Positions 342-29,912 of a stretch of 30,356 nucleotides of DNA are shown here, one piece after another (within the stretch, counting starts at the first letter, position 1; each line of letters opens with the position of its first letter). Source of the DNA: a virus; the IMG/VR virus record IMGVR_UViG_3300020596_000084, positions 1 through 30,356 of that record. One strand, 5' to 3'. The notes beneath the pieces were generated by a model that was not told where the DNA came from, did not search any database, and saw only the letters and a list, made by a program, of their open reading frames with translations. Position numbers and translations under genes: made by a program.

Positions 342-635
342 CTAATCTCCTATCGGCCGTAACTGACCTTTTAAATCGGCTTTTATTTTTTCAAGTTGAT
401 CTTTTGAAAAAGAAAAGCCGCAGTGAGCCGCTGATCGGTCGGCTAACTCAAGTGTTTCCTTGACACGTGGGCTCAGTGTTTCGCATTGTTTAAAATATGC
501 GTTGATAATATCTACGCCTTCTTGATCACCACTGAACCACATCTGGTGCCGCGCCAGGCAGACTAGTTTCATTTGCAGCGCAAGTTCGCTTAGTTCGCTG
601 TCTCTTTTTTTGTTGTCGTGAACGTTTTCTGTCAT
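342..635 (-). CDS. Hypothetical protein A' (97 aa), paralogue of the 1299-1562 gene
   Basis: This small soluble protein has no recognised domain. From residue 17 on it matches the 87-aa protein at 1299-1562 in 62 of 81 positions (my count), with shared blocks LARHQM/QARHQM, GDQEGV, FKQCE, GFSFSKD and LEKIKADLKG. The DNA is nearly identical at the 3' end, so the duplication looks fairly recent. Its N-terminus (MTENVHDNKKRD) has no counterpart in the other copy; that part and the upstream region are instead made of a 21-bp iterated sequence. No good Shine-Dalgarno lies before the ATG at 633-635, so the start is less certain than for the neighbours. The next gene begins four bases after the TAG, so the two are translationally linked. 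Confidence 0.75.
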   Translation of the reverse strand: MTENVHDNKKRDSELSELALQMKLVCLARHQMWFSGDQEGVDIINAYFKQCETLSPRVKETLELADRSAAHCGFSFSKDQLEKIKADLKGQLRPIGD

Positions 636-707
636 ATTGTGAACGCTATACCTTTTTTCGTGAACAGATGCAACCTTTTCGTGAACGATACCCGGTTTTT
701 CGTGAAC
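603..707 (-). repeat. Five-copy GTTCACGA array, exact 21-bp period
   Basis: On the minus strand GTTCAC occurs five times. On the plus strand GTGAAC starts at 618, 639, 660, 681 and 702, so every step is exactly 21 bp, two helical turns. The three upstream copies extend to GTTCACGAAAA; the two at the gene side are GTTCACAATA (spanning the ATG of gene A') and GTTCACGACA. A single further GTTCACGAC lies at 4081-4089 in the operon leader. Between units the sequence is not conserved, and there is no dyad in the core. This looks like a helically phased protein-binding array (operator or iteron type). It overlaps the start of gene A' and could control it. Confidence 0.8.
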
Positions 708-718
708 AGTACCTATTT

Positions 719-746
719 TTCCTCATATCGCACCGCTGGTGGTGCC
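719..746 (-). repeat. Gene-boundary element A
   Basis: Minus-strand order: GGCACCACCAGCGGTGC, then GATATGAGGAAAAATA. It sits directly after the stop of gene B and before the 21-bp array. It resembles the other boundary elements but lacks the ATG, which appears displaced by the array. Confidence 0.65.
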
Positions 747-1294
747 TACTCAAGTAATTCAATCAAGTAAGCGACTTGCTGTTGCGATAGAGTCTTTTTT
801 AGTTTATTGTTCATGTTATTAATGCCTGATTTTTGCGTGATTAGCCTGTGCGTGTACGCAGTTACGCGTTGTTGCGAGATATATAAAGCTACGTTACACG
901 CGATAGCCAGATCCTCGTCAAGATGCTCGTCGTTTGCGTTTTGTTGTTCGCTTTCGATGCGCCGCAAAACGCGCAGCATATGATCCATTGCGGATTCCAG
1001 CTCGTCGAACGACGCTGTGCCGTGAGCGTATTTTTCGGCTACGTCAATAGCTTCAACAGCTTCCGTGCACTCGCCAAGTGTTTTCAGTATTTGCCGCGCA
1101 CAAAAAACTAGGAATAGTCTCTGCGGTTTTTTATTCAGAAACCGTTTAACTACCCAAAGCCGATCTTGCGCGGGGACATGTGCCATTTTCAGCACGTCAA
1201 TAAGCGTGCCTTGCCAGTCGCTATCGACGTATTTTATCGGGTCGTAACAAGGCTCTAGCGCTACGATATCTTTATATGTGATGCTTAAATCCAT
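746..1294 (-). CDS. Hypothetical protein B (182 aa)
   Basis: I chose the ATG at 1292-1294 (MDLSITYKDI) because the duplicate copy at 1-337 starts at the same residue and the spacing to the preceding stop (TAG AAGA ATG) is conserved. A longer reading from 1324 would run into the upstream gene. Visible blocks are EPCYDPIKYV, W.GTLIDVLK, VPAQDRLWVV, RLFLVFCARQIL, then a helical stretch with DVAEKYAHGTASFDELESA, and a C-terminal half without recognised motifs. There is no signal peptide or membrane segment. It is the downstream partner of gene A, and the pair is duplicated as a unit further left. Function is unknown; the weak resemblance to proteins labelled putative immunity protein is a recollection only. 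Confidence 0.8.
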   Translation of the reverse strand: MDLSITYKDIVALEPCYDPIKYVDSDWQGTLIDVLKMAHVPAQDRLWVVKRFLNKKPQRLFLVFCARQILKTLGECTEAVEAIDVAEKYAHGTASFDELESAMDHMLRVLRRIESEQQNANDEHLDEDLAIACNVALYISQQRVTAYTHRLITQKSGINNMNNKLKKTLSQQQVAYLIELLE

Positions 1295-1298
1295 TCTT

Positions 1299-1562
1299 CT
1301 AATCCCCATCCGGCCGTAACTCACCTTTTAAATCTGCTTTTATTTTTTCAAGTAGATCTTTTGAAAAAGAAAAGCCGCTGCGAGCCGCTGCTTGGTCAAC
1401 TATCTCAAGTGTTTCCTTGAAATCAGGACTCAGTTTTTCGCATTGCTTAAAGAATGCGTTGATAATACCTACGCCTTCTTGGTCACCCATGAACCGCATC
1501 TGGTGCCTGGCCTGGCAGACTATCTTCATTTGCAGTCCAAGTTCGTTTGGCTCTTCATTCAT
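1299..1562 (-). CDS. Hypothetical protein A (87 aa)
   Basis: Starts at the ATG at 1560-1562 (MNEEPNELGLQMKIVC) behind a clear ribosome site, GAGGAAAAATAAAA. It is the paralogue of the 342-635 product (62 of 81 aligned residues identical). Predicted small, soluble, mostly helical, with two conserved cysteines (KIVCQARHQ and FKQCEKL). Upstream of gene B with a four-base gap, so A and B probably are co-translated and may act together. The start region (GGAAAAATNAAAATGAAYGA) is shared with the starts at 3849 and 4020. Confidence 0.8.
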   Translation of the reverse strand: MNEEPNELGLQMKIVCQARHQMRFMGDQEGVGIINAFFKQCEKLSPDFKETLEIVDQAAARSGFSFSKDLLEKIKADLKGELRPDGD

Positions 1563-2153: not shown

Positions 2154-3532
2154 TTTCTTCTCTCCTCATATCGCACCACTGGTGGTGCCGTCCTTTTTTT
2201 CTTCGCTTTAGATGGAACTGTCAGATTCGCTTCGACTAATGCTGCGGCGACACAGGGGCTGACTGAGTTTCCGACCATGCGCACCTGCGCTGTCTTGCTC
2301 AATTTCTTACCTTTTAATTCAGGCGCAATAATGTAATTTTTCGGGAAACCTTGAGCAGCAAAGAGTTCATGCGGCTCAAGCATTCGCATTCCTATATCTG
2401 CAATTATGTAATCGACATTTGCGATAGTGACCAGGGCCAAGCGGTCTTTTGTCGTGATTGTGTGCGCCGGTTCGTCGAGTGATTGCCCGCTGCCAGTTGT
2501 GAAATACTTCAGTAAGAAAGCTCGCACTAGCCCAGTTCCACCGCCGGCCATTACTGTACCAAGCGGCTTGTCTAGCACTCGCGGCTCTTGTCCCACTCGC
2601 TCACCGTAACCGGTTTGAATCAGCGTCGGCACCACTAGGCCGTGTGCATCTCGACTAGCTGTAAGTGTTTTAAAAGGCTCATCTAAGCCCTGGCCCCTGA
2701 AGTATTCGCCCTGGTGATTGCAGGTGACAATAAACGGCTTTTTTGCATCGATTACGTACTTCTGGATGCCTTTAGCAATTCGTCTTAAAGTATTGTCAGC
2801 TAGCGGTTTCTTCCGCTGGTAAATCGAAGGGCAAGGCAACGACCAATCAATAATTTCCGCCGCAGTTCGCCAAGGCTTCAGCTGACCATTCTTTACGCCG
2901 ATACTAGTTGGCGCTCCGTGTGTAGCTTCTGGCCAAACAATCGGCAAACCATCGCTTCTCGCAATCAAGAAAAGCCGCTTTCTTATTGTAGGAGCGCCGT
3001 AATCACACGCTTTAAGTATTTTATATTCAACTTTGTAGCCTAGGCGCTCTAAAGCAGTACAAAATGCTTTGAATGTTTTGCCCTTGTTTTTCAGACAAAG
3101 CATTCCTTCTTTAAGCGGTCCCCAAGTGACAAACTCTTCAACATTTTCGAGAAGTATTATTCGAGGCTTTACAGTTGCCGCCCAGCGCACCGCTACCCAA
3201 GCCAGATCTCTGACCTCTTTCGACCTGGGCGCACCACCTTTCGCTTTTGAAAAATGCTTGCAGTCGGGACTGAACCACGCCAACGCCACCGGCTTACCTT
3301 CGGTAATTACCGACGGCACAACGTCCCAAACAGATTCGCAATAGTGTCTGGTCAACGGGTGATTTGCTTCATGCATTACCAGAGCTTCTTGGTTGTAGTC
3401 GATTGCAATATCGACTGTATAGCCAGCGAGCCCAATTCCTGTTGATGCCCCGCCGCCGCCGGCAAAGTTATCTACAATCAATTCTTGAAACAAGCCAAGT
3501 TGGCGAGTATATGTAGCGCTTAAAATATTCAT
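2150..3532 (-). CDS. DNA (cytosine-5-)-methyltransferase, 460 aa
   Basis: Transfers methyl from S-adenosylmethionine to C5 of cytosine in a specific DNA site. The C5-methylase motifs are in order: motif I VDNFAGGGGASTGIGLAG (about 20-37), motif IV FSPDCKHFSKAKGG with catalytic Cys91 (the phage-type SPDC form of the usual PPC), motif VI ENVEEF (129-134), motif VIII APTIRKRLFLIAR, and at the C-terminus MLEPHELFAAQGFP and VRMVGNSVSP (motifs IX and X). The target region carries three LDEP/LDKP..T repeats (LDEPFKTLTAS, LDKPLGTVMAG, LDEPAHTITTK), typical of this family. Complete, so probably active; the target site cannot be read from sequence. The ATG overlaps the upstream stop as ATGA and the stop overlaps the next start as GTGA. 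No cognate endonuclease is next to it, which fits an orphan phage methylase protecting against restriction. Confidence 0.95.
   Translation of the reverse strand: MNILSATYTRQLGLFQELIVDNFAGGGGASTGIGLAGYTVDIAIDYNQEALVMHEANHPLTRHYCESVWDVVPSVITEGKPVALAWFSPDCKHFSKAKGGAPRSKEVRDLAWVAVRWAATVKPRIILLENVEEFVTWGPLKEGMLCLKNKGKTFKAFCTALERLGYKVEYKILKACDYGAPTIRKRLFLIARSDGLPIVWPEATHGAPTSIGVKNGQLKPWRTAAEIIDWSLPCPSIYQRKKPLADNTLRRIAKGIQKYVIDAKKPFIVTCNHQGEYFRGQGLDEPFKTLTASRDAHGLVVPTLIQTGYGERVGQEPRVLDKPLGTVMAGGGTGLVRAFLLKYFTTGSGQSLDEPAHTITTKDRLALVTIANVDYIIADIGMRMLEPHELFAAQGFPKNYIIAPELKGKKLSKTAQVRMVGNSVSPCVAAALVEANLTVPSKAKKKRTAPPVVRYEERRK
2161..2210 (-). repeat. Gene-boundary element C with perfect CACCACNNGTGGTG
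   Basis: Minus strand: CGAAGAAAAAAAGGACGG, CACCACCAGTGGTG, CGATATGAGGAGAG. Here the element lies in frame inside the methyltransferase C-terminus (encoding ...TAPPVVRYEE) and provides the ribosome site for the 59-aa gene. The palindrome 2173-2188 has 7-bp perfect arms around two bases. Confidence 0.8.
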
Positions 3533-4020
3533 TCTTGACCGATTTCTGCTAACGTGACCAGCAGTCGGTTTCGCTCGATTGTTTTCAAAACTCGCTGCTG
3601 CAAGTCAGCGTCACGGCACATTTGCAATAGTGCTGCAAACGTGTCGGGATTTTCGGAAGTGCTCATTTCTATGCGCACGTATTTCGGCTCCTGATTGCTG
3701 CTGGTGGTAACGCAGCAAAATGACACTGTCGCGGTGAGCGGCAGTAGGTCTGGTTTCTGCAAATACTCTGACTCCTGCTTCTGGTGATGCAGCTGCTTTG
3801 TCAGTACTGCTACACGGTCTACTGTAGCGTTGATCTGATGTTCATTCATTTTTATTTTTCCTCTTTTTGCATTAGCTGCTGTTGCCGTATGTGATTCTTC
3901 GATCATTGTGATCAAGTGAGCAAGTCGCTCTACCCACTCCGTTGATAAAGCAGCTTCTTGCCTTAGCGCGGCCGGTAGCGGCAAGATTCGGATTAACGGT
4001 TGTCCAGCCGGGTCGTTCAT
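3529..4020 (-). CDS. Hypothetical protein (163 aa), possibly two genes fused in frame
   Basis: First gene of the leftward operon. ATG at 4018-4020 with ribosome site GGGGAAAAATCAAA. Residues 1-40 (MNDPAGQPLIRILPLPAALR...) and 58-163 (MNEHQINATVDRVAVLTKQLHHQ...) are separated by boundary element E, which here is translated as EESHTATAANAKRGKIK. The internal ATG at 3847-3849 has an excellent ribosome site (GAGGAAAAATAAAA) identical to that of gene A, so a 106-aa product from 3849 is likely made as well, or instead. The C-terminal part has a coiled-coil-like KQLHHQKQESEYLQ segment and an IERNRLLVTLAEI end. Function unknown. The stop overlaps the methyltransferase start (ATGA). Confidence 0.65.
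   Translation of the reverse strand: MNDPAGQPLIRILPLPAALRQEAALSTEWVERLAHLITMIEESHTATAANAKRGKIKMNEHQINATVDRVAVLTKQLHHQKQESEYLQKPDLLPLTATVSFCCVTTSSNQEPKYVRIEMSTSENPDTFAALLQMCRDADLQQRVLKTIERNRLLVTLAEIGQE
3850..3905 (-). repeat. Gene-boundary element E, translated
   Basis: Minus strand: CGAAGAATCACATACGG, CAACAGCAGCTAATGC, AAAAAGAGGAAAAATAAAA, then ATGAATGAA. The 3' half equals element D. Here it is in frame and has no stop, joining two open frames. Confidence 0.65.
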
Positions 4021-4075
4021 TTTGATTTTTCCCCATAGCAGTGACTAGCACCAGCAGTGGTGCCGTTCTTTTTGG
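4021..4075 (-). repeat. Gene-boundary element F
   Basis: Minus strand: ACCAAAAAGAACGG, CACCACTGCTGGTGC, then GGGGAAAAATCAAAATGAA. The same order of palindrome, ribosome site and first codons as at other junctions, but more diverged. It precedes the first gene of the operon. Confidence 0.55.
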
Positions 4076-4080
4076 TTTCT

Positions 4081-4196
4081 GTCGTGAACGTGTCCACTCT
4101 AGAGATAGCTCGTAGCTGCTATCTCTAGAATGAAGGTGTGTTCGACGACGAACTAATTTTTCGGTGGACACGACCGAGTCGTATTTAATTGACTCG
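4081..4196 (-). promoter_or_regulatory. Structured leader of the leftward operon, candidate three-way junction
   Basis: Nested perfect inverted repeats. P1 is CGTGTCCAC (4089-4097) with GTGGACACG (4164-4172), 9 bp. Directly abutting it, P2 is TCTAGAGATAGC (4098-4109) with GCTATCTCTAGA (4118-4129), 12 bp with an 8-nt loop. P3 is GTTCG (4139-4143) with CGAAC (4148-4152). Next to P1 lies CGAGTC (4175-4180) with GACTCG (4191-4196). P1 enclosing P2 and P3 gives a three-way junction. If leftward transcription starts near 4220, this is a roughly 200-nt 5' leader before the first start codon at 4020. It could be a cis-regulatory RNA, or a set of protein-binding dyads in DNA. One GTTCACGAC copy (4081-4089) touches P1. 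Confidence 0.6.
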
Positions 4197-4256: not shown

Positions 4257-4519
4257 TCTATATACAGATGACTGGCACACGTGACAGCACCCGCCGCAGA
4301 AAACAGTCAAAAGCGCCAAAAGCAGCACAGGCGCATAGATACCTCATGTGATAGAGATGTGATGAGATTCGGCGGCTTAGTCTGTTAGTCGCAATAGTAG
4401 CAACGTTTTTTTTGATATATTGTGCATATCTAACGTGTCTTACTCAGTGTGATCTACTCGATATTGATTGTATATTTTTTATCCTCCGGACTTTTTTACC
4501 CCCTTAGCGATATACGCTA

Positions 4520-4563
4520 TATCCTCGATTGCACTTATCTATATCCTCAATTGTACTTATCTA
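4520..4563. repeat. 22-bp tandem repeat, two units
   Basis: Units 4520-4541 and 4542-4563 read TATCCTCRATTGYACTTATC plus TA and differ at two positions. The TATCCTC start links them to the TATCCTCCGGA family. Next to it TAGCGATATACGCTA (4505-4519) is a 5-bp-arm inverted repeat. Confidence 0.85.
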
Positions 4564-4582
4564 TATTGCGATATTTTCACTC

Positions 4583-4616
4583 CAAAAAAAACCTCTCTCG
4601 AAAAATTTTGCGAGGT
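4583..4616 (-). terminator. Weak terminator-like hairpin on minus strand
   Basis: The minus strand reads CCTCGCAAAATTTTTCGAG followed by AGAGG and eight T. The stem is short and A/T-rich and the T run starts five bases after it, so this is only a possibility. Confidence 0.25.
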
Positions 4617-4644
4617 ACCCCATAAATCATTTTGAGAAACACAA

Positions 4645-4659
4645 TTTGCTCTGAGCAAA
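4645..4659. promoter_or_regulatory. Operator-like palindrome TTTGCTCTGAGCAAA
   Basis: Perfect 7-bp arms around one central base. The spacing is too tight for a good RNA hairpin but right for a dimeric DNA-binding protein. TATATAAA follows at 4670-4677, so the palindrome would overlap the -35 zone of a rightward promoter, if one is there. Confidence 0.5.
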
Positions 4660-4741
4660 AAAAGACCACTATATAAAATGTTGTACGTCTACTTGCTCGT
4701 TAGTATTATCAACGTATACGCAATAGATACCAGCAAAATTC

Positions 4742-4804
4742 TATCCTCCGGCTATCCTCCGGATCCGAGGGTAGTTATTGCCCATTCCGGAGGCACGGAG
4801 GATA
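4742..4804. repeat. Long hairpin made from opposed TATCCTCCGG copies
   Basis: TATCCTCCG (4742-4750) pairs with CGGAGGATA (4796-4804), and CCTCCGGA (4756-4763) with TCCGGAGG (4786-4793): 17 bp of perfect pairing with a small internal loop and a 22-nt terminal loop. Confidence 0.8.
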
Positions 4805-4924
4805 GATCACTCCTAATAGTCCTTTTGGAAAATATCAATAATATTGATACTGAAATCAAGGTTTTTACTACTCACTACTAATCGACAAAAGGTTTAGTGG
4901 GCACTTTTATCCTCCGGAATGGGC
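4780..4924. repeat. Perfect 14-bp inverted repeat, 117 bp apart
   Basis: GCCCATTCCGGAGG (4780-4793) and CCTCCGGAATGGGC (4911-4924) are exact reverse complements. The left arm also pairs within the 4742-4804 hairpin, so two alternative structures compete for it. The right arm is followed by TTTTT (4925-4929), terminator-like for a rightward RNA. Confidence 0.8.
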
Positions 4925-5050
4925 TTTTTGGTACTTCGATCAGCCAACCATGCCGTTTTGCGCTGGAAATCTATCCTCCGGAAATTTGAAAAGGCCGTTT
5001 TTCGTGCTATTTTTGACCGTAATTGACTACTCAATCGAGAGGCCAGACTC

Positions 5051-5410
5051 ATGCCTTTTTCACCACTGCACAAATGCAATCACCCGGCCTGTACTCAGAG
5101 CACAGATAAGCGCTTCTGTGCGGCTCACAATAGCGTTAAAGATGAGCATGACTCGCTGTACACCACCTACCGGTGGACAAAGGCCCGTAAGAGCTTCCTA
5201 AGGGCCAACCAGTGGTGCGCGTGTATGGCAGCAGAATGCAAGCATGATGTGATCGTTGGGTGTCTCGACCAGAGCAGTGCCGTGGTTGACCATGTGGTGC
5301 CTCGCACTAAGGGTGGTGCTACGTGGGACCAAGGAAATTGGCAGAGGCTCTGTAAGACATGTCATGATCGGAAAACAAATAGAGAAAACCGTCCACACGT
5401 TTTCTATTAA
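5051..5410 (+). CDS. HNH endonuclease, 119 aa
   Basis: Small HNH nuclease of the kind encoded next to phage terminases; in HK97-like phages such a protein stimulates terminase cutting at cos. The N-terminus has a CNHPACTQSTDKRFCAAHN zinc-finger-like block (9-27). The HNH core is VVDHVVPRTKGG (His81) ... GNWQRLCKTCHDRKT (Asn96, His105), with C101-x2-C104 as probable structural zinc ligands together with the Cys residues near 56-63. ATG at 5051 with AGAGG eight bases upstream. First gene of the rightward block and 355 bp before the small terminase. Its last codons are partly duplicated downstream (5447-5487). Confidence 0.92.
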   Translation: MPFSPLHKCNHPACTQSTDKRFCAAHNSVKDEHDSLYTTYRWTKARKSFLRANQWCACMAAECKHDVIVGCLDQSSAVVDHVVPRTKGGATWDQGNWQRLCKTCHDRKTNRENRPHVFY

Positions 5411-5487
5411 GTCAAGGCATCTTACGTTGAATTAACAAACAAGGCTAATAGAGAATCATTCACATGTCGTCTATTAAGTCAAGGCAT
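5378..5487 (+). repeat. Duplicated 3' end of the HNH gene
   Basis: Copy 1 (5378-5420, covering the last codons and stop) and copy 2 (5447-5487) share AATAGAGAA, a diverged middle, and the exact 18-mer TCTATTAAGTCAAGGCAT (5403-5420 and 5470-5487). Copy 2 no longer ends a gene. Confidence 0.85.
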
Positions 5488-5765: not shown

Positions 5766-6263
5766 ATGTCTGGACCGATCCCAAAATCGTACGAAGAAAA
5801 TAAAAAAAATGGTTTTCCTGGCAAGCGCGGGAAAGCTGACAGAAAAAGCATGGATATTTCGATAGCGACAGCAGAGCCAAATATGCCGGCCTGGCTCGAC
5901 TCTGGTGCAAAAGAACACTGGCAAGAAATCGTTCCGTTATTGATCGCGTACCGACTTTGCACCGTCCTTGACGGTCCGGCACTTGGTGCGATGTGCTCGA
6001 AATACAGCCAGGCAGTCAAAGCAGAGCGTGTCTTAAATAAAAAAGGCACTGGTGGTGGTGCTACGTTTTTATCGCCGAACGGCCACATTTGTCAGCGTCC
6101 AGAAGTAAAAATTGCTAAAGATGCTTGGTCAGCTTATTATCAGTGTGCTGAAAAGTTTGGCATGACTCCAGCAAGCCGCGCGCGTATGCGTATTCCGCTT
6201 CCAAAATCGAGTGCAAGTGATCAACCAACAAACAGATCAAGATTTTTTGGTCCCGGCGTGTAA
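5766..6263 (+). CDS. terS: Terminase small subunit, P27 type
   Basis: Recognises phage DNA and delivers it to the large subunit for packaging. The 165-aa length and the pattern P.W....A...W.+I...L (PAWLDSGAKEHWQEIVPLL), a D.....L..Y..A segment (LDGPALGAMCSKYSQAVKAE), and the end FGMTPASRARMR are hallmarks of the P27 family. The N-terminus is basic and Lys/Gly-rich (NKKNGFPGKRGKADRK). ATG at 5766 with GAGG upstream. The 3' end overlaps the large subunit start by 53 bp. Confidence 0.9.
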   Translation: MSGPIPKSYEENKKNGFPGKRGKADRKSMDISIATAEPNMPAWLDSGAKEHWQEIVPLLIAYRLCTVLDGPALGAMCSKYSQAVKAERVLNKKGTGGGATFLSPNGHICQRPEVKIAKDAWSAYYQCAEKFGMTPASRARMRIPLPKSSASDQPTNRSRFFGPGV

Positions 6264-8007
6264 ATTCACGTCGAAACAGCGGCGGCTTTTAAATTACAAT
6301 CTGCCACCGCTGGAGCCACTAGCGATTTACGCGCGAAACCAGTGCAAATTTCTTGAGATCGTAGAGAAGCTAGAGGTCAGAAAAGATGTCGTCTTAGATG
6401 ACGTTACGGTTTGGCGTGACCATGATGGTGTCATCCAGTATTATTTTGACGCGCACGAAGCAGCTCGGTGGATTGATTTCATCCAAGAAAAAGGGAGGCA
6501 CAGTAAAGCAGAATGGCGCGGCCAGCCGCTTATATTGAGTCACTGGCAAGTTTGGCAGACGATGGAATTGTTCGGCTGGCGCGAAATTGGCACGGCGCTA
6601 CGCAGGTATAAATATCTTTTTGAATTTGTGCCGCGCAAAAATGGAAAAACGCTTTGGCTAGCGGCAGTCGCGCTCGGAGTTTTGTTGATTGACGGTGAAA
6701 TGGCACCAGAAATTTACTGCATGGGCAGCGCCAAAGATCAGTCAGACACGCTGTATGCCATGGCTCAGTGCATGTGTGGTACTGATGAAAAGAAAAAGCC
6801 ATTCCCGTGGGCCGACACCGAACTGACAGAGTTGACGGAAGTCGGAGCAAAAGCAATCACATGCGAATTTAACGGTGGCAGCTTCCAGCCGTTACCCTTT
6901 AATGCTGATGCTTTCCACGGCAAAAATCCACACTTAGCGATCGTCGAAGAATATCACGCGCACAAAAATGACACTATGCGCGATGTCGGCGAAGGCGGCC
7001 AAGGCGTGCGCGGTCAGTCACTAGTAATTATTGATACCACCGCCGGTGAAAACCCGGACAGCCCGTGCTTTGAGGAGTTGTTGATCGCGAGAAACGTTAG
7101 AGATGGTGCGCTGGTGGTGCCAAATTACTTGCCGGTAATTTTCGAAGCAGGTGAAGACGATCCTTGGGACAGTTTAGCAACTGCCGCAAAATGTAACCCA
7201 CAATTTGGGCTGTCTCTGAAACCAAAATTTTTCATCGATCAGATACAACAGTGCAAAATAAAGCCGCACAAAAAACGGACATACAAGCAACAGAATTTAA
7301 ATCAATTTGTGGGTGCGCGAGAGGCCGCATTTGATTTTGATGAATGGATAAAAAATAGCAAGCCGTTTGACGTGCGCGATTTTAAAAATATGAAAATGTA
7401 TGCTGGCATGGATCTGGCTTCAGTGAACGATTTAACTGCTTTAGTTGGAGTTTTTTGCCCCGATGGCTTTGACGGAATTTGGTATGCGCACGCTCACTTT
7501 TGGTGCCCTGAAAATGCAGTGACGACAAAAAAAACAGTCGGGAATTACGATCTGTGGAAAGAGCAGGGCTATCTAGTTGCCACTCCGGGCAATGCTACAG
7601 ACTACGATTACGTCGTTGAAACAATAAAAGCGTATGACAAAATGTTTGATATCGACTTGTTGAATTGCGACCGTTATAACGCAATGCAACTAGCCGCGAA
7701 ACTGACTTTAGTAGATGGTCTTCGTATTGAGTTTATTGGGCAAGGATCTGCCACCATGACCGAGCCGATCAAAGAGCTGCAAAGGAGAGTCAAAGATAAT
7801 AGAATTGTCTTTTGCAATCCGATTTTGGATTGGATGGCGAAGACTGTAGTGCTGACCGGGAATGACAGAGCGTGTGCATTTGGGAAGCTTTCAGACGCTT
7901 CGAAGATTGACGGCATGGTGGCACTGGCGATGGCAATAGCGGCCGTTCTCCGGGCTATGAACAACGAAGCAGCGGGACCGGAAGAAAGAGGATTTTACAT
8001 TGTATAA
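6211..8007 (+). CDS. terL: Terminase large subunit
   Basis: ATP-driven motor and nuclease that packages DNA through the portal. The ATPase part has the family's variant Walker A PRKNGKT (141-147) and Walker B LAIVEEYHAHK (242-252). The nuclease part has MYAGMDLASVNDLTAL with Asp401 and NCDRYNAM with Asp487 as likely metal ligands. Length about 598 aa is normal for this group. The GTG at 6211 is the longest supported start and lies inside the small-subunit gene; conserved sequence begins around residue 30, so a somewhat later start is possible. Overlap with the small subunit suggests coupled translation. Confidence 0.95.
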   Translation: MQVINQQTDQDFLVPACKFTSKQRRLLNYNLPPLEPLAIYARNQCKFLEIVEKLEVRKDVVLDDVTVWRDHDGVIQYYFDAHEAARWIDFIQEKGRHSKAEWRGQPLILSHWQVWQTMELFGWREIGTALRRYKYLFEFVPRKNGKTLWLAAVALGVLLIDGEMAPEIYCMGSAKDQSDTLYAMAQCMCGTDEKKKPFPWADTELTELTEVGAKAITCEFNGGSFQPLPFNADAFHGKNPHLAIVEEYHAHKNDTMRDVGEGGQGVRGQSLVIIDTTAGENPDSPCFEELLIARNVRDGALVVPNYLPVIFEAGEDDPWDSLATAAKCNPQFGLSLKPKFFIDQIQQCKIKPHKKRTYKQQNLNQFVGAREAAFDFDEWIKNSKPFDVRDFKNMKMYAGMDLASVNDLTALVGVFCPDGFDGIWYAHAHFWCPENAVTTKKTVGNYDLWKEQGYLVATPGNATDYDYVVETIKAYDKMFDIDLLNCDRYNAMQLAAKLTLVDGLRIEFIGQGSATMTEPIKELQRRVKDNRIVFCNPILDWMAKTVVLTGNDRACAFGKLSDASKIDGMVALAMAIAAVLRAMNNEAAGPEERGFYIV

Positions 8008-14486: not shown

Positions 14487-14872
14487 GCATAAAAAGCAAT
14501 GTTAGAGCCAAGCTTTTAGCGTCACCACCCGTGGTGGCATTAGTCGGCACTAAAATTTTCTCTGGGAACGTCTCTCAGGGCTCGATTCCATTTATTTTGA
14601 TGAACGTAAAAAATACGGATTTCATCCATTTCGATCGTGGTACTGATCTAACAAAACAGTGCCGAATCCAATTTGATTGTGTGTCTAACAGCTCAGACCA
14701 GGCCGAATTAATTGGTGATGCACTTATTGCAGCGCTGAATAATTCTACCGGCAATCAGAGTAGTAACAAAATCCAAGAATCGCGAGTAACTAATAGACTC
14801 GATGATGACTGGAGCGCGGATGTCGGGCTGTTTCGACATATCGTTGATTTTCAAATTTCGTATACTGATTAA
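14483..14872 (+). CDS. Tail terminator / completion protein, DUF3168-like
   Basis: 129 aa. VRAKLLASPPVVALVGTKIFSGNVSQGSIPFILMNV, then CRIQFDCVSNSSDQAELIGDALIAAL and a final FRHIVDFQISYTD strand follow the DUF3168 pattern of proteins that cap the tail tube at the head end. The sequence coding PPVV near the N-terminus is one of the exact CACCACNNGTGGTG palindromes (14523-14536). Confidence 0.82.
   Translation: MSIKSNVRAKLLASPPVVALVGTKIFSGNVSQGSIPFILMNVKNTDFIHFDRGTDLTKQCRIQFDCVSNSSDQAELIGDALIAALNNSTGNQSSNKIQESRVTNRLDDDWSADVGLFRHIVDFQISYTD
14523..14536. repeat. CACCACNNGTGGTG palindrome
   Basis: CACCAC CC GTGGTG, in frame as P-P-V-V in the tail-terminator gene. One of four exact copies in the window. 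Confidence 0.8.
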
Positions 14873-15270: not shown

Positions 15271-15285
15271 TCCGAGGCGCACGCA

Positions 15286-15298
15286 CCACCCATGGTGG
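15286..15298. repeat. Imperfect member of the CACCAC palindrome family, non-coding
   Basis: CCACC CAT GGTGG between two genes; same theme as the exact palindromes but with a 3-base centre. Confidence 0.5.
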
Positions 15299-28679: not shown

Positions 28680-28684
28680 TTTTG

Positions 28685-28698
28685 CACCACCTGTGGTG
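28685..28698. repeat. CACCACNNGTGGTG palindrome, non-coding copy
   Basis: CACCAC CT GTGGTG six bases after the stop of the 137-aa gene. As it lies outside any gene, the motif cannot be a by-product of protein sequence only. Confidence 0.85.
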
Positions 28699-28745
28699 TG
28701 CCCTTACCGCGCCCGTAAATTACAACAACAAAAAAGGAAAATAAC

Positions 28746-29026: not shown

Positions 29027-29152
29027 ATGAGATTGACACTCGAAAATTTAAAAGAACCCGTTAAGCAAACGCCAATTCCGTTGGCACTACTGATGGTGCT
29101 TGTGATGACCCTGGCTTACGGCGCTGTCTTGGTCACTCTTAGACTCCCTTAA
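29027..29152 (+). CDS. 41-aa single-pass membrane protein, holin-like candidate
   Basis: ATG at 29027 with AAGGA upstream, 11 bases after the previous stop. The product begins MRLTLENLKEPVKQTPIP, followed by one hydrophobic stretch (LALLMVLVMTLAYGAVLVTL) and a short RLP end, so it is a small membrane protein with a charged cytoplasmic N-terminus. It lies just upstream of another membrane protein and the lysozyme, as expected of a small holin or antiholin, but size alone does not prove that. Confidence 0.65.
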   Translation: MRLTLENLKEPVKQTPIPLALLMVLVMTLAYGAVLVTLRLP

Positions 29153-29612: not shown

Positions 29613-29912
29613 ATGAAAAAAAATATTGTGATACTCTCAGTGGTGGCATTGCTTTTTTTGAGCTCAAATTTACCGGCCGGGGCAAATGCAGTGACAAGAA
29701 GGGCTCTGACCCTGCTTAGAACACCAGTTAAAGTCATCAAGGGTTTTGGCCTAATTGTCGTTATTGCGGCATCAATGATTGATGCCAAAATTGACGAAGT
29801 TATTGAGACAGAGCTAGTAAATGAAATGGTAAAAGAAATGAAAGAGCTGCATAAAAAACTGCCACCACCAGTGGTGCCTGACTCCGAAGATGTCGAATTG
29901 GAAAAGGTATAA
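29613..29912 (+). CDS. Exported small protein with Sec signal peptide (99 aa)
   Basis: I chose the ATG at 29613 because GGAAGG lies before it and it yields a clean signal peptide, MKKNIVILSVVALLFLSSNL, with likely cleavage after PAGANA. The mature part begins VTRRALTLLRTPVKVIKGFG, has a second hydrophobic stretch (LIVVIAASMIDA), then an acidic helical tail with KLPPPVVPDSEDVELEKV. No lipobox, so it is not an Rz1-type outer spanin. The second hydrophobic stretch may anchor it. It precedes the lysozyme and is probably part of lysis, function unknown. Contains one exact CACCACNNGTGGTG copy. Confidence 0.75.
   Translation: MKKNIVILSVVALLFLSSNLPAGANAVTRRALTLLRTPVKVIKGFGLIVVIAASMIDAKIDEVIETELVNEMVKEMKELHKKLPPPVVPDSEDVELEKV
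29863..29876. repeat. CACCACNNGTGGTG palindrome
   Basis: CACCAC CA GTGGTG, in frame as P-P-V-V in the exported protein, the same frame as the copies at 2174 and 14523. Confidence 0.8.

Follow-up and report, generated by a model that had tools for sequence, protein, structure and literature searches.

The early region of an unclassified phage contains five copies of the hexamer GTTCAC at exact 21-bp steps on the minus strand, running from 707 to 603 across the start of a small orphan gene, here denoted A1 (on the plus strand, the GTGAAC starts lie at 618, 639, 660, 681 and 702). The simplest inference is that this array is a selected DNA-binding site at a fixed helical phase, and it is almost certainly recognized by a DNA-binding protein. 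With somewhat less than even confidence, we favor the reading that these are iteron-type direct repeats that bind a replication initiator and lie outside the initiator gene.

The window analyzed here, 30,356 bases, is the complete IMG/VR record IMGVR_UViG_3300020596_000084. The record is classed as linear and lacks end repeats, so that the sequence is probably a fragment of a genome; its start falls inside gene B' and its final ORF is truncated at the record end, and thus the early region is incomplete. The rightward genes encode TerS, TerL, portal, head protease, HK97-type capsid, tape measure and a J-like tail protein, a predicted structural and packaging set by which the phage is siphovirus-like. 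The leftward early operon (4020 to 1) is made up of small orphan genes together with one short gene and the gene for a C5 methyltransferase. A 48-bp leader-plus-start block (3841-3888 and 1554-1601, 94% identical) is found ahead of two small, unrelated genes of this region, and because the first of these copies lies inside the open frame 3529-4020, this frame probably represents two genes. The gene pair A-B is duplicated (A at 342-635 and 1299-1562, B at 746-1294 and 1-337); its two copies lie at a distance of 957 bp and are 83% alike over a length of 300 bases. The predicted structure of the A1 protein is all-alpha, with four helices, and a fold search with this model returned no match.

Table 1. 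Coordinates of the array and of the other features discussed in the text
Feature	Position	Strand or direction	Remarks
Array, five 21-bp units, core GTTCAC(GAAAA)	603..707	(-)	Units 707-687, 686-666, 665-645, 644-624, 623-603
Orphan gene A1	342..635	(-)	97 aa; most upstream in-frame ATG inside unit 4; unit 5 within the coding part
Possible short upstream frame	632..709	(-)	CTG 709, 25 codons; stop TGA overlaps the A1 ATG as ATGA
Shine-Dalgarno box GAGGAAAAATA, retained	714..724	(-)	~85 nt upstream of the A1 ATG
Junction hairpin GCACCACCAGCGGTGC	730..745	(-)	Upstream of the box; one of a dispersed family in the window
Gene B (MDLSITYK...)	746..1294	(-)	Pairs with A2; lies immediately upstream of the array
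B', copy of B	1-337	leftward operon	Placed after A1
Paralogue A2	1299..1562	(-)	87 aa, 74% identical to A1; ordinary leader, no array
Lone GTTCACGACAG	4079..4089	(-)	In the operon leader, as an arm of a strong RNA stem
terS	5766-6263	rightward	5 kb from the array
Palindrome family sites	730-745, 1976-1991, 2173-2188, 4048-4063, 5304-5319, 6046-6061
Palindrome family sites, continued	14522-14537, 15283-15298, 28684-28699, 29084-29099, 29862-29877

No other run of a hexamer at constant spacing (15 to 60 bp) in the whole window is as long as the array; in 100 first-order Markov simulations of equal composition, the longest such run had three copies in 12 cases, and no run was found in the other 88. 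The six core columns are identical in all five units, pairwise identity is 70% at unit positions 7-11, and it drops to 28% in the spacer (positions 12-21), compared to 29% expected from the composition. Perfect cores combined with random-like spacers argue for selection of a DNA signal and against a fresh duplication, in which the spacers would still be alike, or a protein repeat, in which six bases would not stay letter-perfect beside random neighbors. T-tracts centered at 655.5, 677.5, 698 and 718 are in phase with the array. An earlier note on this DNA had described five GTGAAC copies exactly 21 bp apart with little conservation between them, and both observations hold against the simulated maximum of three copies and the compositional expectation. 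The conserved core that it reported stands for the six bases only, whereas the full 11-mer GTTCACGAAAA is complete in just three units, with one mismatch at 623-613 and three at 644-634.

The array sits between the ribosome site (724-721) and the sole ATG of A1 (635), directly after the junction hairpin and the ribosome box, both of which are intact. The same box, GAGGAAAAATA, also precedes A2. Hence the suggestion in the earlier note that the array had replaced the ribosome site is not correct, the box being kept at 724-714; comparison of A1 with A2 does agree with its other two statements, namely, that the first codons of A1 differ from those of the paralogue and that the array is found at only one of the two genes. 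The A1 ATG lacks a well-placed ribosome box of its own. In the A1 frame, the units read VHEKPGI-VHEKVAS-VHEKRYS-VHNMTEN-VHDN, but between the stop at 725 and the ATG at 635 this frame contains no ATG, GTG or TTG, only ATA and ATC. With no ordinary start ahead of the units, these heptads would not be translated under ordinary rules, which speaks against a coding heptad repeat of A1.

On the iteron reading, an initiator of phage replication, similar to lambda O and bearing a winged helix at its N terminus, would occupy one GTTCAC(GAAAA) core in every 21 bp, and since this step makes two helical turns of B-DNA, its molecules, once bound, would be aligned on one face, with the phased T-tracts helping to bend the DNA. 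The resulting O-some-like complex would then open nearby DNA and load the helicase. Binding could also affect translation or transcription of A1, whose start the array spans. As is characteristic of iterons, the repeats are tandem, direct and near two-turn spacing, with a core conserved in 5 of the 5 units at an exact 21-bp step. The weak point of the origin reading is the position of the array outside any initiator gene: no cognate initiator contains or adjoins the repeats, no initiator was found among the window proteins that were scanned, and the flanking genes A1 and B showed no initiator similarity. We infer that an initiator of this phage binds the array, and its gene, if it exists, would lie in the missing part of the genome. 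The flank of the array is not notably AT-rich (40% GC at 601-800 vs 34% at 4401-4600), and no DnaA boxes were detected beyond chance.

Arrays of the same kind are found inside initiator genes of other phages. A looser pattern, GTTCAC in three copies at 21-bp steps, is present in at least 120 IMG/VR stretches, and many of the arrays among the matches listed are located within ORFs, directly behind a winged-helix-like domain. These in-ORF arrays use different reading frames (VHEMNNN, SPHERxx, SRGEPQR, VHQNEQG, VNTDVQG), and because the frame differs between phages, the conserved feature is a DNA signal. In a PHROG scan of eight such array-bearing proteins, seven had at least one replication-initiation or O-like match; of 64 distinct array-bearing ORFs among the matches listed, 12 match phrog_270 and 11 match phrog_678. 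The N-terminal domain encoded at one locus (L105) shares 60-67% identity with a protein annotated as DNA replication protein O. Exact hexamer runs with a period of 15-40 bp are absent from its four closest named O genes (L309-L312), so that such arrays are not a feature of all O genes. Among the loci compared, the units nearest to those of the window are in L082 (GTTCACGAAATGAACAATAAC twice, then GTTCACGAAAAGGTACGACAA), where the GTTCACGAAAAGGT unit, GTTCACGAAAAGGTACGACAA, has 14 bases in common with window unit 2. The L082 product itself has no Pfam or PHROG match, and tblastn of L082 and L043 in phages gave no match; the layout of L082 and its weak similarity to other array-bearing ORFs suggest that it is an initiator.

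The same 21-bp search with a control hexamer, TGACTC, returned 72 stretches, in which 7 of 54 ORFs match phrog_270, compared to 12 of 64 for GTTCAC. Since the control also marks initiators, the 21-bp period, more than the letters of the hexamer, appears to be the mark of initiator genes, and GTTCAC as a diagnostic string in its own right is weakened both by this control and by its few matches in bacterial genomes. Arrays outside ORFs have mixed neighbors, including terminase subunits, helicase, primase and invertase. A scan for a hexamer in three copies at 21-bp steps detects phage initiator genes and could offer an inexpensive means of locating origins. The earlier note had left the choice between an operator and an iteron set; this general kind of element is supported, and the initiator genes tilt the choice toward iterons.

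The main rival to the iteron reading, possible although clearly less probable, is an operator array of a phage transcription regulator, in which cooperative binding on one face would repress or activate A1-B', or would roadblock the leftward transcript. Within the early leftward operon, the array overlies the start of one of two duplicated genes and is missing from the paralogue, and its core is under selection, all of which would suit a regulator; if this is what the array is, it points to an uncharacterized regulator acting on an orphan gene family. However, the array is mid-operon rather than at the operon head, no regulator was identified on the fragment, and a search of the minus strand near 600-760, which covered promoters of the sigma-70-like type, found none overlapping or next to the sites, which disfavors a plain promoter operator. 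An operator could also be expected at other promoters of the phage, and the candidate for such a second site is a single copy in the operon leader (an 8-mer at 4082). The earlier note had pointed to this lone copy at 4081; the 8-mer is genuine, but its significance is not supported, given that 35% of simulated windows (13.5% if the core is required) contain a match to the array as long as its 12 bp or longer, and sequences within one mismatch of TCGTGAAC are about as frequent in the window as expected (20 vs 23). A second operator at this position was accordingly rejected.

The leader itself, at 4015-4190 on the minus strand, folds far better than its shuffled versions (z-score -5.1; 0 of 200 shuffles) and includes a long hairpin, CTAGAGATAGC...GCTATCTCTAG, with no Rfam match.

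An unlikely alternative is that the array is a relic, that is, an iteron segment of another phage's initiator gene that was recombined in between the ribosome box and A1 and is no longer, or not yet, functional. The A1-frame heptads do resemble NVHEMNN-NVHEMNN-NVHEKVRQ of L082 and DVHEVNN-NVHDMNKK of L146, and the paralogue has no array. Against this, randomized spacers beside perfect cores are unexpected in decaying or freshly moved sequence, and no parent sequence was found: two copies of GTTCACGAAAA at 21 bp occur in no other viral contig of IMG/VR and have two unrelated matches in 257 Gb of genomes (L123 and L124), the first within an ORF and the second an intergenic tandem repeat. The L124 repeat, at 6247-6340 in a gammaproteobacterial MAG, comprises roughly four AGTTCACGAAAAACTAAAATT units with a 21-bp period and has a chromosomal gene on either side. 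Each of these two genomes holds such an array at one place only, so that a dispersed array family was rejected. None of A1, A1/A2, B or TerL had relatives in IMG/VR, and tblastn of the extended A1 and of B against the phage collection gave nothing significant.

Less probable again is a dual role, in which an origin with iterons split from the initiator gene lies over the start of an orphan gene, and initiator binding would both start replication and switch the gene, or would couple its translation to replication, while the second copy of the gene would escape this control. What speaks for such a combination of origin and A1 control is the position of the array.

We consider it improbable that the array is primarily a translational element, whereby the ribosome box would drive the short frame from CTG 709 to TGA 634, A1 would be translated by stop-start coupling at ATGA, and the repeats would serve the RNA or the peptide. 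The geometry is suggestive, in that the distance from the box at 724-721 is ~85 nt to the A1 ATG but 11 nt to CTG 709, which may act as a start codon, and in that the frame ends in ATGA at the start of A1, which lacks a well-placed box; this frame could thereby couple translation to A1. CTG starts are rare, however, RNA folding across the array is nothing unusual (z +1.2), and exact 21-bp phasing with random spacers would be left without explanation. Rfam and tRNA searches found no match.

A packaging site with binding repeats for the terminase small subunit is very improbable: some non-ORF arrays in other phages do adjoin terminase genes, but here 5 kb separates the array from terS, and HNH-terS-terL is immediately preceded by a repeat set, TATCCTCCGG, that is a better candidate. 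That set (4477-4982) comprises five direct and at least two inverted copies in mostly noncoding, AT-rich DNA and is a candidate packaging site, origin or late operator. The same part of the window contains a 22-bp tandem repeat, CTATATCCTCAATTGCACTTAT, in 2.3 copies (4517-4566) and, between the HNH gene and terS, a 38-bp imperfect direct repeat with copies 67 bp apart (5383-5420 and 5450-5487). A dispersed palindrome family, GCACCAC-NN-GTGGTGC, yields 30 strand-matches with at most two mismatches, compared to 0.67 expected; many coincide with junctions between genes, in both operons, and are frequently followed closely by a ribosome box, and this family is possibly a more unusual feature of the phage than the array.

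Returning to the iteron reading, the array can be compared with three groups of known systems. Plasmid iterons (RepE, RepA and pi-type Rep) are direct repeats about two turns apart that are bound by winged-helix Rep proteins. The window shares this spacing of direct repeats with them but has no rep gene, a different core and a phage context. The arrays inside the O-like initiator genes detected in IMG/VR (L016, L043, L061, L074, L082, L094, L105, L108, L109 and others) have the same 21-bp step as the window, and those of the GTTCAC set have the same core, several with a conserved core and a variable remainder. They lie inside the initiator ORF after the winged helix, whereas the window array is outside, and several have a palindromic second half, TGAAC, that the window units lack. 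Lambda-type origins consist of iterons and an AT-rich tract and are intrinsically bent (PMC7466680), with four 19-bp iterons in the lambda origin (PMC4488673). Like the O-bound lambda origin and the Stx phage origins, which have four and six repeats, respectively, the window has several short direct repeats with an A-tract per repeat, in early-region DNA that would be bent (PMC7466680, PMC4488673). In contrast, the lambda iterons are inside gene O beside the AT-rich tract, whereas the window array is outside an initiator gene with no clear AT-rich tract, and its core, GTTCACGAAAA, differs from the lambda and Stx iterons. The array is of a known kind in an unusual location and, if it is an origin, would provide a replication handle for a phage that has no close relative in the collections searched and would exemplify a tailed phage whose iterons are located away from the initiator gene.
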